Shown here: positions 12,643 to 16,189 of the stretch, piece after piece
Position numbering within the stretch: the stretch's first letter is position 1
Layout: every line of letters begins with the position of its first letter
DNA from: Yersinia hibernica
GTDB taxonomy: Bacteria > Pseudomonadota > Gammaproteobacteria > Enterobacterales > Enterobacteriaceae
NCBI RefSeq assembly: GCF_004124235.1
Contig: NZ_CP032487.1
Coordinates: 2,542,001 to 2,606,000, forward strand
Length of the DNA stretch: 64,000 nucleotides
Reading direction: 5' to 3'
Made by a program: the position numbers and the translations under genes
The notes under the pieces: model-generated
Databases searched by the model: none
What the model saw: only the letters and a program-made list of their open reading frames with translations
What the model was told of the DNA's origin: nothing

Positions 12643-13140
12643 ATGGAGATTAGAACTGCAAAACCTGCTGATTTTGCTGAGATTTGGCCCCTCTTTCAGG
12701 CGGTAATTAGTCGTGGTGATACCTACGTCTTTACTCCAGACACCCCTGAACAAGATGCTTATAATTACTGGTTTGCTCCCGGTGTTCGCTGTTTTATCGC
12801 GCTGCATGAACAACATATTGTTGGCATGTATAAATTAATCGATAACCAACGCGGCCTCGGCTCCCACGTCGCCAATGCTTCATTTATGGTTGATGAGCAA
12901 GCTCGCGGATTAGGGGTGGGTAAAGCGCTGGGGCTCCATTGCATTGCACAAGCAACCGCACTGGGCTACCGCGCCATGCAGTTTAATTTTGTCGTCAGCA
13001 CCAACACTTTGGCCATTGCACTGTGGCAAAAATTAGGTTTTGAGATAATCGCCACCCTGCCGGGCGCATTTAACCATCGCGAATTAGGTTATGTTGATGC
13101 CTATGTTATGCATCGAACGCTAGCTCCTCAGCAGGGCTAA
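12643..13140 (+). CDS. GNAT family N-acetyltransferase
   Basis: A 165-residue GCN5-related acetyltransferase. The acetyl-CoA pyrophosphate-binding motif ARGLGVGKALG is near residues 87-97, preceded by the strand SFMVDEQ and followed by the LGY.A.QFN and LWQKLGFEIIATLPGAF pattern common to the phosphinothricin/spermidine-type branch. It would transfer an acetyl group to a small-molecule amine, but the acceptor is unknown. It starts 13 bases after rhtA with an AGGAG site, so it is probably the second gene of that operon. A clear terminator follows. Confidence 0.88.
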   Translation: MEIRTAKPADFAEIWPLFQAVISRGDTYVFTPDTPEQDAYNYWFAPGVRCFIALHEQHIVGMYKLIDNQRGLGSHVANASFMVDEQARGLGVGKALGLHCIAQATALGYRAMQFNFVVSTNTLAIALWQKLGFEIIATLPGAFNHRELGYVDAYVMHRTLAPQQG

Positions 13141-13181
13141 TTACCTTATTCCCCCCTGAAAAAGCGTTATTCGACTACACG

Positions 13182-13215
13182 CCAGCCCGGTTATTTCGCG
13201 GGTTGGTATTTTTTA
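13182..13215 (+). terminator. Terminator after rhtA-GNAT
   Basis: CCAGCCCG (13182-13189) pairs with CGGGTTGG (13199-13206, one G-U pair) around a 9-base loop and is followed by TATTTTTTATTT. It separates the rhtA operon from the FAS1/sigma module. Confidence 0.85.
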
Positions 13216-13237
13216 TTTATTATTTTTCATTTTTTTT

Positions 13238-13266
13238 GCATCCAAAACACTCGGCTGATTCGTATA
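13238..13266 (+). promoter_or_regulatory. Candidate ECF-sigma promoter of the FAS1 gene
   Basis: GCATCC (13238-13243) and CGTATA (13261-13266) are separated by 17 bases, and the second box lies 51 bases before the FAS1 start. The -35 resembles the CCATCC element reported for mycobacterial SigK. The linked ECF sigma factor is also SigK-like, so autoregulation is plausible. Box assignment is by eye. Confidence 0.5.
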
Positions 13267-13316
13267 GGTAGATGTGAGGCAAAACTTCACCTCAACTATC
13301 CTAAAAGGAATACATT

Positions 13317-13877
13317 ATGAAAACGCTGATTCGTACCGCCCTTTGTGCTTCCTTGGTGTTTAGCAGTATTTCTATGGCCGCCATGATGTCCGACACGGTC
13401 ATGGTGGGGGGCGCATCAATGCTGCCAAGCAAAAATATTATTGAGAATGCGGTGAACTCAAAAGACCACACCACCTTGGTGGCCGCAGTGAAAGCCGCCG
13501 GGCTAGTGGATACCCTACAAAGCTCCGGGCCCTTTACCGTGTTCGCGCCCACCAATGCCGCGTTCGCAAAATTGCCCGCCGGTACGGTTGAAAATTTGGT
13601 CAAGCCAGAAAATAAAGCCCTGCTCACTCAAATCCTGACCTATCACGTGGTCGCGGGGAAATACGATATGAAACAACTGGAAAGTAAAATTAAGGCGGGC
13701 GGAGGGACTGCGGAGCTAAAAACTGTTAACGGCCAGCCATTATGGATTATGAATAATGGGCCACATAATATTCAGATTAAAGATGGTCAAGGTAACATCG
13801 CTAATATCAGTACCTATGATGTACAACAGAAAAATGGTGTGATTGATGTGATTGATACGGTTCTGATGCCTAAATAA
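13317..13877 (+). CDS. Secreted fasciclin (FAS1) domain protein
   Basis: A 186-residue protein with a signal peptide (cleavage probably after SMA, near residue 22) and one FAS1 domain spanning about 37-185. The H1-like segment reads GPFTVFAPTNAAFAKLP (near 68-84), followed by LLTQILTYHVVAGKY and the late YDVQQKNGVIDVIDTVLMP, a textbook FAS1 pattern. FAS1 domains usually mediate adhesion or cell-surface interactions; this one should be periplasmic or secreted. The ECF sigma and RskA-like anti-sigma genes follow immediately. In Mycobacterium tuberculosis SigK/RskA control the FAS1 proteins MPT70 and MPT83, so a regulator-target link is likely. An intrinsic terminator lies between this gene and the sigma gene. 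Confidence 0.9.
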   Translation: MKTLIRTALCASLVFSSISMAAMMSDTVMVGGASMLPSKNIIENAVNSKDHTTLVAAVKAAGLVDTLQSSGPFTVFAPTNAAFAKLPAGTVENLVKPENKALLTQILTYHVVAGKYDMKQLESKIKAGGGTAELKTVNGQPLWIMNNGPHNIQIKDGQGNIANISTYDVQQKNGVIDVIDTVLMPK

Positions 13878-13893
13878 AACCCGTCTATACTGG

Positions 13894-13921
13894 GTGCAGT
13901 ATCCCACTGCACGGTTTTTTT
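13894..13921 (+). terminator. Terminator between FAS1 and ECF sigma genes
   Basis: GTGCAGT (13894-13900), loop ATCCC, ACTGCAC (13906-13912) and GG are followed by seven T. The U-tract ends right at the AGGA ribosome site of the sigma gene (start 13934). Partial read-through would give much more FAS1 mRNA than sigma-factor mRNA from the shared promoter. Confidence 0.85.
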
Positions 13922-13933
13922 AGGATTGGCGTA

Positions 13934-14488
13934 ATGAATGAATGTTCTTTGGAACAACAGATTGGACTGATCGAGGCTATTGCTCAGGGCGATCAGTCCG
14001 CTTTTGAAAAACTTTACCGGCTGACATCCCCGCGATTATTTGCAGTCGCCCTGCGCATGTTACGTAACCGAGCACGGGCGGAAGAAGTGTTGCACGACAG
14101 TTTTCTCACAGTCTGGAACCGGGCTGGCAATTACAATGCGCAACTTAGCGCACCACTCACTTGGCTAACCCATATAGTTCGCAATCGCGCTATCGACCTG
14201 ATGCGAGGTTGTGATAATCGCCTACAGACATTGGATGATACCCAAGCCGATGATCTAACTGACGATACCCTGACGCCACTGACACAGTTGCAGCAAGACT
14301 GTGAAGCTAAACAATTAGCAGACTGCCTAATACATCTGCCTGTTGAACAGCGCCAAAGTATTATGTTGGCTTACTATCAAGGGCTGTCTCATGGGGAGAT
14401 ATCGGTTCATTTACAGCAACCTCTGGGGACGATAAAAAGCTGGATACGTCGGGCGCTAGGCCATCTAAAGGACTGTGTAGGCTTATGA
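13934..14488 (+). CDS. ECF RNA polymerase sigma factor, SigK-like
   Basis: A 184-residue sigma-70 family factor of the extracytoplasmic-function type. Region 2 covers about 14-90 and includes DQSAFEKLYRLTSPRLFAVALRM and the AEEVLHDSFLTVWNRA core-binding helix. Region 4 covers about 125-182, with LPVEQRQSIMLAYYQGLSHGEI and the helix-turn-helix LGTIKSWIRRALGHLK. It directs RNA polymerase to a small regulon when released from its anti-sigma factor. Its stop overlaps the anti-sigma start (ATGA), so the two are translationally coupled. The upstream FAS1 gene is the likely target. The resemblance to the SigK group is judged from context and the RskA-like partner. Confidence 0.9.
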   Translation: MNECSLEQQIGLIEAIAQGDQSAFEKLYRLTSPRLFAVALRMLRNRARAEEVLHDSFLTVWNRAGNYNAQLSAPLTWLTHIVRNRAIDLMRGCDNRLQTLDDTQADDLTDDTLTPLTQLQQDCEAKQLADCLIHLPVEQRQSIMLAYYQGLSHGEISVHLQQPLGTIKSWIRRALGHLKDCVGL

Positions 14489-15150
14489 AAAACAGAAGCG
14501 AATATCACTCAGCATTGGCCGCAGAATATGCACTGGGTACCCTGCGCGGGCTAGCTCGCATGCGCTTTGAGCGCAAAGCCCGCCGCGACCCACTGCTGGC
14601 GGCTGATGTGGCCAATTGGCAGCGCCTATTGACCCAACTTGATAATCAACTCACCCCGTTAACGCCCCCTGAACAGGTCTGGAAACGGCTGCAATTACAG
14701 TTACCGCCGCCCAATGTTCGCCACCTTAAACACAACCCCTGGTCTTATGTCGGGTGGGCGGTTGCCGCATGCCTGGCGGCCATATTGCTTATTCCGCGCT
14801 TATTGGTTGAGCCTCCGGCCGCCATTCCCGTCGCGGTGTTGTCAAATAGCCAGCAGAGCACCCAGTGGGTTGTGAGTCTGGAAAAATCAACTCGCAGTTT
14901 AACCTTAACACCACTGAACCCTGTCGCGGTCAGTGACACTCATAGCCTTGAATTATGGAGTATTCCTGCCGGCGAAAAACCCCATTCGCTGGGGTTGTTA
15001 AATACCCAAGGCCCAACACAACTGACGCTGGCTGAAAACCAATTAACCGCCCATTCACTACTGGCGATAAGCTTGGAGCCTCATGGTGGCTCGCCTACCG
15101 GGCAACCGACCGGAGCTGTATTATTCAGCGGGCCATTACAAAATCTGTAA
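14485..15150 (+). CDS. RskA-like membrane anti-sigma factor
   Basis: A 221-residue single-pass membrane protein. The cytoplasmic N-terminal domain (about 1-85) has the AAEYALGTLRGLARMRFERK.RRDPLLAADV pattern of the anti-sigma-K factor family, without the zinc-binding His-Cys-Cys motif of ZAS anti-sigma factors. A transmembrane helix is near 90-108. The periplasmic part (about 110-221) has the LELWSIP..EKPHSLGLL..QGPTQLTL pattern of RskA C-terminal domains. It should hold the sigma factor at the membrane until regulated proteolysis releases it. It overlaps the sigma gene by four bases and is followed 24 bases later by tam. Confidence 0.9.
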   Translation: MKNRSEYHSALAAEYALGTLRGLARMRFERKARRDPLLAADVANWQRLLTQLDNQLTPLTPPEQVWKRLQLQLPPPNVRHLKHNPWSYVGWAVAACLAAILLIPRLLVEPPAAIPVAVLSNSQQSTQWVVSLEKSTRSLTLTPLNPVAVSDTHSLELWSIPAGEKPHSLGLLNTQGPTQLTLAENQLTAHSLLAISLEPHGGSPTGQPTGAVLFSGPLQNL

Positions 15151-15174
15151 ATTATTTTTCTGCGGAGGCCATAG

Positions 15175-15951
15175 ATGCAAGACTGGAACCCTGATTTATA
15201 CCGCCAATTTGAAGCAGAGCGCACCCGCCCCGCTCACGACCTGTTAGCGCGCATTGATGCTATAACACCAAAGCGAATCAGTGATTTAGGATGTGGGCCG
15301 GGCAACTCGACCCAATTGTTGCACCAGCGTTTTCCCCATGCCCATCTTGTCGGCATTGATAATTCGCGCGCCATGTTGCTCAGCGCACAACAGCGCTTAC
15401 CGGATTGTGCTTTCCTCGCGGCGGATATCCGCCAGTGGCAGCCATCAGAGCCACAAGACCTGATTTATGCCAATGCATCATTGCAGTGGCTCACTGACCA
15501 TCAGCAACTTTTCCCTTATCTATTCTCTCAATTGGCTGCCAGCGGGATACTTGCCGTCCAGATGCCGGATAATCTGGATGAACCCAGTCATCGAGCCATG
15601 CGAGAGGTCGCAGAAAATGGCCCATGGCAACAGACGATACAAGAGGCCGGGGCTATACGAGCCAAAGTGCTCAGCGCCAATCAATATTATGATTTACTGG
15701 CCCCTCATGCTGAGCAAGTTGATATCTGGCGAACCACATATTACCACCCGATGCCATCAGCGCAGGCGATTGTTGACTGGCTACGGGCAACCGGTTTACG
15801 GCCTTTTCTTGAAAAATTGACTGAAGCTATGCGATTGGATTTTCTGCAAGATTATCTGGCCATTATTGATGCGGCTTATCCACCGCAAGCTGATGGCCGG
15901 CGCTTACTCGCCTTTCCGCGCTTATTTATTGTTGCTCGCGCCACACAATAA
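15175..15951 (+). CDS. tam: Trans-aconitate 2-methyltransferase
   Basis: A 258-residue class I SAM-dependent methyltransferase. The SAM motif [10 protein letters not shown] is near residues 38-47, followed by GIDNS at the acidic loop and [11 protein letters not shown]. The N-terminus [20 protein letters not shown] and the overall length match Tam, which methylates trans-aconitate, a spontaneous inhibitor derived from cis-aconitate. GCGGAGG stands just before the start. The 24-base gap after the anti-sigma gene permits read-through, but a functional link to that module is not evident. Confidence 0.9.
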
Positions 15952-15962
15952 CCTATTGAGTA

Positions 15963-15985
15963 TGCCGGTGAAATTAATTTACCGG
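15963..15985. repeat. Inverted repeat after tam
   Basis: GCCGGT and ACCGGC flank the nearly self-complementary GAAATTAATTT. A long hairpin can form just after the tam stop, but there is no T-run, so it may be a transcript-stabilising hairpin rather than a terminator. Between here and dps the sequence is AT-rich with no gene. Confidence 0.5.
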
Positions 15986-16189
15986 CGTACCATACTGATA
16001 TCCCACAATAAAATAACCAATAGAAAAATTTACTTATATTTTTAAATATAAAAATACATATAAATCATAGTAATAGTTATTACCAATTAGACATAATAAT
16101 AAGAATGATAATATTCTAGTATTGAAACACTAAATGACACTTTAAAACACATTCGTCAGTAAGCTATTTAATTGATAGGCATTATCTGC

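Follow-up and report, generated by a model that had tools for sequence, protein, structure and literature searches.

The locus treated here raises the question of whether a regulatory set of Mycobacterium tuberculosis, the sigma factor SigK and the anti-sigma factor RskA with the FAS1 proteins MPT70 and MPT83, also operates in an enterobacterium. The window, the whole stretch of DNA analysed, comprises 64,000 nucleotides (nt) of the Yersinia hibernica chromosome (contig NZ_CP032487.1, positions 2,542,001 to 2,606,000). In it, genes for a fasciclin (FAS1) protein, a SigK-like extracytoplasmic function (ECF) sigma factor and an anti-sigma factor with an RskA_C domain were found side by side on the plus strand from their open reading frames (ORFs) and Pfam domains (Table 1). 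Between FAS1 and the sigma gene lies a gap of 56 nt, and the sigma ORF runs 4 nt into that of the anti-sigma factor, which bears out the adjacency and tight packing claimed in a preliminary description of the locus. Very probably the window holds the Yersinia copy of a known cassette, mpt83-sigK-rskA, with RskA as an activator-inhibitor switch, SigK as its sigma factor and FAS1 as the output. What the present analysis itself shows is that the parts, the promoter before FAS1 and two cysteines in the sigma factor are conserved.

The sigma factor carries the domains Sigma70_r2 (E 2.9e-13) and Sigma70_r4_2 (E 1.9e-13), and its closest relatives are those of other Yersinia. Among solved structures its best match is M. 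tuberculosis SigK (4nqw, E 1.1e-22), followed by RpoE/SigE (9.9e-17). Aligned to 4nqw, Cys131 and Cys181 are the equivalents of residues 133 and 183 of M. tuberculosis SigK, in line with the C181 numbering in the consulted parts of Veyrier et al. 2020 (PMC7509140). Cys131 is present in all 64 aligned sigma sequences and Cys181 in 63, in an alignment that counts the window twice (as itself and as locus L062). In the anti-sigma protein the RskA_C domain match spans residues 91-212, and the one hydrophobic stretch, at about residues 91-108, was read by eye as a membrane segment. The protein thus fits the plan of RskA, with a putatively cytoplasmic, sigma-binding N-terminus, a membrane segment and the RskA_C domain. 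Its C-terminal motif GGSPTGQPTG is invariant in 8 of 8 aligned RskA sequences, chosen from the 62 loci with an RskA match. It scores 81.2 bits against a cut-off of 100 for the NCBIfam model NF052375, and a search of solved structures gave no match. The comparison of both regulators with SigK and RskA, suggested beforehand as a check, therefore holds for the nearest structure of the sigma factor and for the RskA_C domain; by the NCBIfam cut-offs it holds for neither protein.

The N-terminus of FAS1 resembles a signal peptide and shows no obvious lipobox (both judged by eye). Across the 56 triad loci, the window itself left aside, identity to the window proteins in the best aligned segment is 74-97% for FAS1, 46-92% for the sigma factor and 36-90% for RskA. 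FAS1 is hence the best-conserved member of the triad, a pattern to be expected of the product that does the work. An observation that weighs against this expectation comes from Yersinia thracica (L007:5601-5938; also L078), in which FAS1 is internally deleted with a change of frame. The promoter site is retained there, with full-length matches to both sigK and rskA; the target was therefore lost before its regulators.

The promoter-like pair GCATCC-N17-CGTATA begins 79 nt ahead of the FAS1 start codon. Across the whole genome of 4.80 Mb, the search proposed earlier found the exact pair once, before FAS1. The sigma gene is encoded in 20 of 25 Yersinia genomes, and GCATCC-N16/17-CGTATA occurs in all 20 of these and in none of the five sigK-less genomes. 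The 25 genomes hold 24 such sites, 20 before FAS1 and four elsewhere, compared to seven matches of a reversed control pattern. A wider set of 63 loci (31 loci of sigma relatives, 20 from Yersinia and 12 further ones; several Yersinia species are present twice) was also compared. All 56 loci with FAS1 beside sigK have GCATCC-N16/17-CGTA[TG]N at most 330 nt before FAS1; these loci span Yersinia, Ewingella, Buttiauxella, Erwinia, Pantoea, Cedecea and further relatives. The -35 element GCATCC is constant, and the -10 element reads CGTATA in 42 loci, CGTAGA in six, CGTATG in six and CGTATT in two. Three loci (L032, L063 and L076) have extra DNA between the site and the FAS1 start, so that the site lies further upstream than elsewhere. 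Since the site is present in every FAS1-sigK locus and co-occurs with SigK across the Yersinia genomes, the promoter proposed in the preliminary description is real and beyond chance. That description let the feature begin at 13238, the first base of the -35 box; its gene content stands, with the FAS1 gene itself beginning at 13317.

The recurrence of SigK, RskA and FAS1 outside Actinobacteria is likewise correct, as the domains, the 4nqw match and the conserved promoter indicate, and was in print by 2020 at the latest (2008 by citation). It is not new because the consulted parts of PMC7509140 name and test the 'mpt83-sigK-rskA minimal cassette' of Yersinia enterocolitica, and credit the authors' 2008 work with showing a site for SigK binding ahead of the FAS1 gene in that cassette. 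According to these parts, firefly luciferase was fused to the Y. enterocolitica FAS1 ('mpt83') promoter and assayed in Escherichia coli, a host stated there to have neither SigK nor RskA, and in Y. enterocolitica. SigK alone gave some promoter activity in both hosts, full-length RskA or RskA 1-85 abolished it and RskA 1-179 gave full activity. Replacement of Cys181 in E. coli left minimal activity and no activation. The Y. hibernica locus belongs to the same genus and shares the three partners, the Cys181 numbering and the SigK site before FAS1, and its RskA is long enough for both truncations; no functional difference was found, although species and allele may differ. The earlier view of the anti-sigma as RskA-like is thus upheld by the RskA_C domain, and is incomplete in casting it as an inhibitor alone, RskA being an activator-inhibitor.

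On this basis RskA would sit in the inner membrane with its cytoplasmic N-terminus holding SigK. A signal, described as not known in the consulted parts of PMC7509140, would alter the periplasmic C-terminus of RskA, probably with proteolysis, and turn RskA from an inhibitor into an activator. SigK-RNA polymerase would then transcribe FAS1 from GCATCC-N17-CGTATA, and the exported FAS1 protein would be the main, perhaps the only, target in the cell. The export, the signal and its transmission are the steps that we infer. For the adhesin function and the envelope signal named in the preliminary description, no test was found in the literature searched.

Several observations weigh against this reading. 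The published reporter experiments cover the Y. enterocolitica cassette and not the copy in this genome. With 137 bits the sigma factor falls short of the 226 that the NCBIfam SigK model requires, and three further ECF models outscore that model (141-148 bits, none above its own cut-off); for these reasons the accurate label is SigK-like rather than NCBIfam SigK. FAS1, compared with MPT70 (1nyo) of the two mycobacterial proteins, is nearer to other FAS1 chains (1w7d, E 1.7e-31) than to MPT70 (E 6e-16), and is for that reason not specifically an MPT70 orthologue, to judge from sequence. Such distances would be expected if the resemblance to the mycobacterial module were convergent, with unrelated ECF and anti-sigma genes as chance neighbours of a FAS1 gene. 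This is highly improbable in view of the best structural match to SigK, the RskA_C domain, the conservation of both SigK cysteines and a phylogeny in the consulted parts of PMC7509140 that places the Y. enterocolitica and M. tuberculosis SigK proteins in neighbouring groups. The same parts assign the M. tuberculosis protein to ECF18 and that of Y. enterocolitica to ECF19, in conflict with the consulted parts of PMC7406223, where the M. tuberculosis SigK/RskA pair is AS19-1, i.e. ECF19.

The number of targets also bears on the reading. In M. tuberculosis the SigK regulon is reported, in the sources as far as consulted, to comprise eleven genes, and FAS1 could likewise be one of several SigK targets here. 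Degenerate sites do exceed the reversed control, both with at most one mismatch (10, i.e. one exact and nine others, against 4) and with at most two (216 against 141), and weaker additional targets may lie among the 206 two-mismatch sites. A one-mismatch site, GCATCT-N17-CGTATA, stands 38 nt before a gene that we take to be CstA-like from its sequence (L038:1501-1567; C1:1909259 in the own genome). A wider regulon is nevertheless unlikely, as the exact site is unique, eight of the nine one-mismatch sites fall within ORFs at least 142 residues long, and the CstA-like site, sought with up to three mismatches, is absent from all 24 other Yersinia genomes. The CstA-like gene was accordingly set aside as a chance case. 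The four exact N16/17 sites elsewhere in the genus occur one each in four other genomes, three in one family of long ORFs and one in a 97-residue ORF that may not be a gene. The one FAS1 gene thus looks to be the main SigK target, and the regulon of one main target proposed in the preliminary description gains support from the unique exact site, the single FAS1 gene and the location of most one-mismatch sites within ORFs.

If SigK drives FAS1, it may be asked what drives sigK and rskA. No SigK-type site (NCATCC-N15-18-CG[TA]) was found before sigK in any of 44 distinct stretches made up of 150 nt of the FAS1 3' end and the gap; that of locus L116 has a lone GCATCC with no partner box. Instead, of 41 distinct gaps, 35 have TATACT at 5-9 nt past the FAS1 stop, compared to a mean of 0.95 and a maximum of 5 in 200 dinucleotide shuffles, and CTATACT is found in 33 of the 41 (shuffle mean 0.285, maximum 2). 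The six gaps that lack TATACT are four from Erwinia (TATAAT, TACAAT or TACACT at another distance), L020 (TATACC) and L022 (TATACA). CTATACT is a -10 consensus reported for sigma-S, whose promoters have no clear -35 box, according to the consulted parts of PMC5650638 and PMC3923258. By eye, no clear -35 box was seen before the CTATACT of the window. In most copies a hairpin with a variable stem sequence begins within a few nt after TATACT. As an alignment of 16 gaps with MAFFT was poor in the 3' arms, sequences were folded one by one, a procedure that leans towards finding pairs; on that footing 28 of the 41 gaps fold better than their shuffles (z < -2, median z -2.49), with canonical pairs of more than one kind at most positions of the stem: several kinds were seen at each of these. 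The window hairpin itself does not surpass its shuffles (z -0.50 for the whole gap, -0.72 for the part after TATACT). Rfam offers no fitting family for the element, the one match (E 4.6) being due to chance. An outer helix around the hairpin was seen by eye for window positions 13878-13933 and their homologues, for example AAAACCCGUC with GACGGGUUUU in L009 and CUGUC with GACAG in L031; in some genera it may extend over the ribosome-binding site of sigK. The hairpin as a plain terminator was dropped as an explanation, given its weak folding score in the window and a T-run after the stem in some copies only.

This conserved element, apparently new with the present analysis, is left out of the module picture of the preliminary description, which otherwise stands for the triad and the FAS1 promoter; it does not appear in the consulted parts of PMC7509140 either. 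The element may serve as a promoter, as an mRNA end or as both. The motif points to transcription of sigK-rskA from their own sigma-S- or sigma-70-type CTATACT promoter just after FAS1. We tentatively propose, as a possibility well short of even, that the enterobacterial cassette is split into two transcription units, with a conserved element of 60 nt linking them, in which SigK would act on FAS1 from GCATCC-N16/17-CGTATA and a sigma-S-type CTATACT on sigK-rskA, the -10 element abutting a hairpin at which the FAS1 mRNA would be ended or trimmed. A rival reading, itself somewhat less likely than not, is that read-through from the FAS1 promoter feeds sigK-rskA in one autoregulated operon, with the hairpin only tuning the ratio of FAS1 to its regulators or stabilising the end of the FAS1 mRNA, and CTATACT as part of an RNA element and not a promoter. 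The three genes share one strand, the FAS1-sigK gap is 40-126 nt in 56 loci, and the hairpin is kept with a changed stem sequence in most copies. Its 5' arm, moreover, lies within a few nt of TATACT, so that RNA initiated some 7 nt past TATACT would lose part of the arm and the whole hairpin would form only in RNA from upstream. What speaks against read-through is that TATACT is retained in L076, which has the hairpin deleted, and in L021 and L113, which have no stable hairpin after it, that the four Erwinia gaps carry variants resembling -10 elements, and that a T-run directly follows the stem in some copies only.

Table 1. Features of the FAS1-sigK-rskA locus of Y. hibernica (positions in the window).
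Feature	Position	Strand	Basis
SigK-type FAS1 promoter GCATCC-N17-CGTATA	13238..13266	+	Unique exact copy in the genome; conserved in sigK-bearing Yersinia and FAS1-sigK loci
FAS1 (fasciclin) protein, 186 residues	13317..13877	+	Pfam PF02469 (Fasciclin), E 2.3e-34; sole Fasciclin match in the genome
CTATACT, sigma-S/sigma-70-like -10 element, putative sigK-rskA promoter	13885..13891	+	Enrichment compared to shuffled gaps
Hairpin GTGCAGT-ATCCC-ACTGCAC followed by GG and seven T; terminator-like in the window copy	13894..13921	+	Folding
SigK-like ECF sigma factor, 184 residues, conserved Cys131 and Cys181	13934..14488	+	Pfam, solved-structure match, alignment
RskA-like anti-sigma factor, 221 residues, one hydrophobic stretch (about 91-108, by eye)	14485..15150	+	Pfam RskA_C, E 1.6e-19

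In 394 genomes drawn from the order, the sigma factor was found at E 1e-40 or better in 15, belonging to 9 of 114 genera. FAS1 lies directly upstream of the sigma gene in 56 of the 63 loci, and an RskA match is present in 62. The flanking genes in the window encode an EamA-family transporter (presumably rhtA-like), a GNAT acetyltransferase, a trans-aconitate 2-methyltransferase (tam) and a ferritin-like protein that we assume to be Dps-like. The rhtA-tam site is common to 12 of 26 triad loci (nine Yersinia, two Ewingella and one uncultured Enterobacterales). The other 14 have none of eight tested neighbour genes within the DNA examined, and the set therefore occurs as a unit at chromosomal sites that differ between genera. 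A search of the plasmid collection with window positions 13000-16000 gave no match. At least two of the sigK-less Yersinia genomes probably lost the cassette, as remnants of it persist: an 86-nt stretch matching window positions 13827-13912 in G020, and 17 residues of the RskA end in G011. In a third, G022, 28 nt separate the GNAT and tam matches.

Seven of the 63 loci hold a SigK-RskA pair with no adjacent FAS1 match: L025 and L027-L030, from metagenome-assembled genomes of Burkholderiales or Betaproteobacteria, and L117 and L118, from the same order as Yersinia. They share with the window a SigK-like sigma gene followed by that of an RskA-like protein, with GCATCC-type sites nearby in several, and differ in the genes behind these sites, namely DUF4331 (L117, L118), globin (L027) and sigK itself (L117, L118, L029). 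In L117 and L118 (genomes G114 and G305), GCATCC-N16-CGTTTG stands ahead of both sigK (by 55 nt) and the DUF4331 gene (by 69 nt), which suggests an autoregulated pair with another target. The globin gene of L027 (L027:2805-3320) is placed opposite the pair, with GCATCC-N16-CGTATA 81 nt upstream; L029 has a GCATCC-type site 34 nt before sigK, and in L025 a ferritin-like gene (Ferritin_2/DUF4439; L025:7262-7873) lies downstream of the pair. These sites come from a loose pattern run with no shuffle control, the same scan having given sites at no obvious target, and are best regarded as leads. Locus L116 (genome G290), with a phenylalanine at position 181, is the only one of the 63 with no RskA match (about 1.5 kb after sigK were covered). 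The loss of both fits the link between cysteine loss in SigK and altered RskA reported in the consulted parts of PMC7509140, and makes L116 a natural variant of the sigma/anti-sigma pair, its second cysteine gone and no recognisable RskA nearby.

Compared to the M. tuberculosis system, the window shares a SigK-type sigma factor with two conserved cysteines, an RskA_C anti-sigma factor and a FAS1 target, and differs in that FAS1 adjoins sigK, lacks an obvious lipobox (by eye) and does not have MPT70 as its nearest relative by sequence, with one evident target against the eleven reported genes. The comparison strengthens the single-target view of the cassette, which thereby offers a compact model, with one sigma factor, one anti-sigma factor and one target, for the activator-inhibitor behaviour of RskA outside mycobacteria. 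The sigma-S-like promoter proposed for the switch genes is a testable input that bears on what turns the system on. If the cassette does consist of two transcription units, it would be rewired compared to the distant pairs (L117, L118, possibly L029) that have a SigK-type site before sigK and other targets, and the switch would be charged by the general stress or stationary-phase sigma factor and released by RskA, in a cascade from sigma-S to SigK to FAS1.

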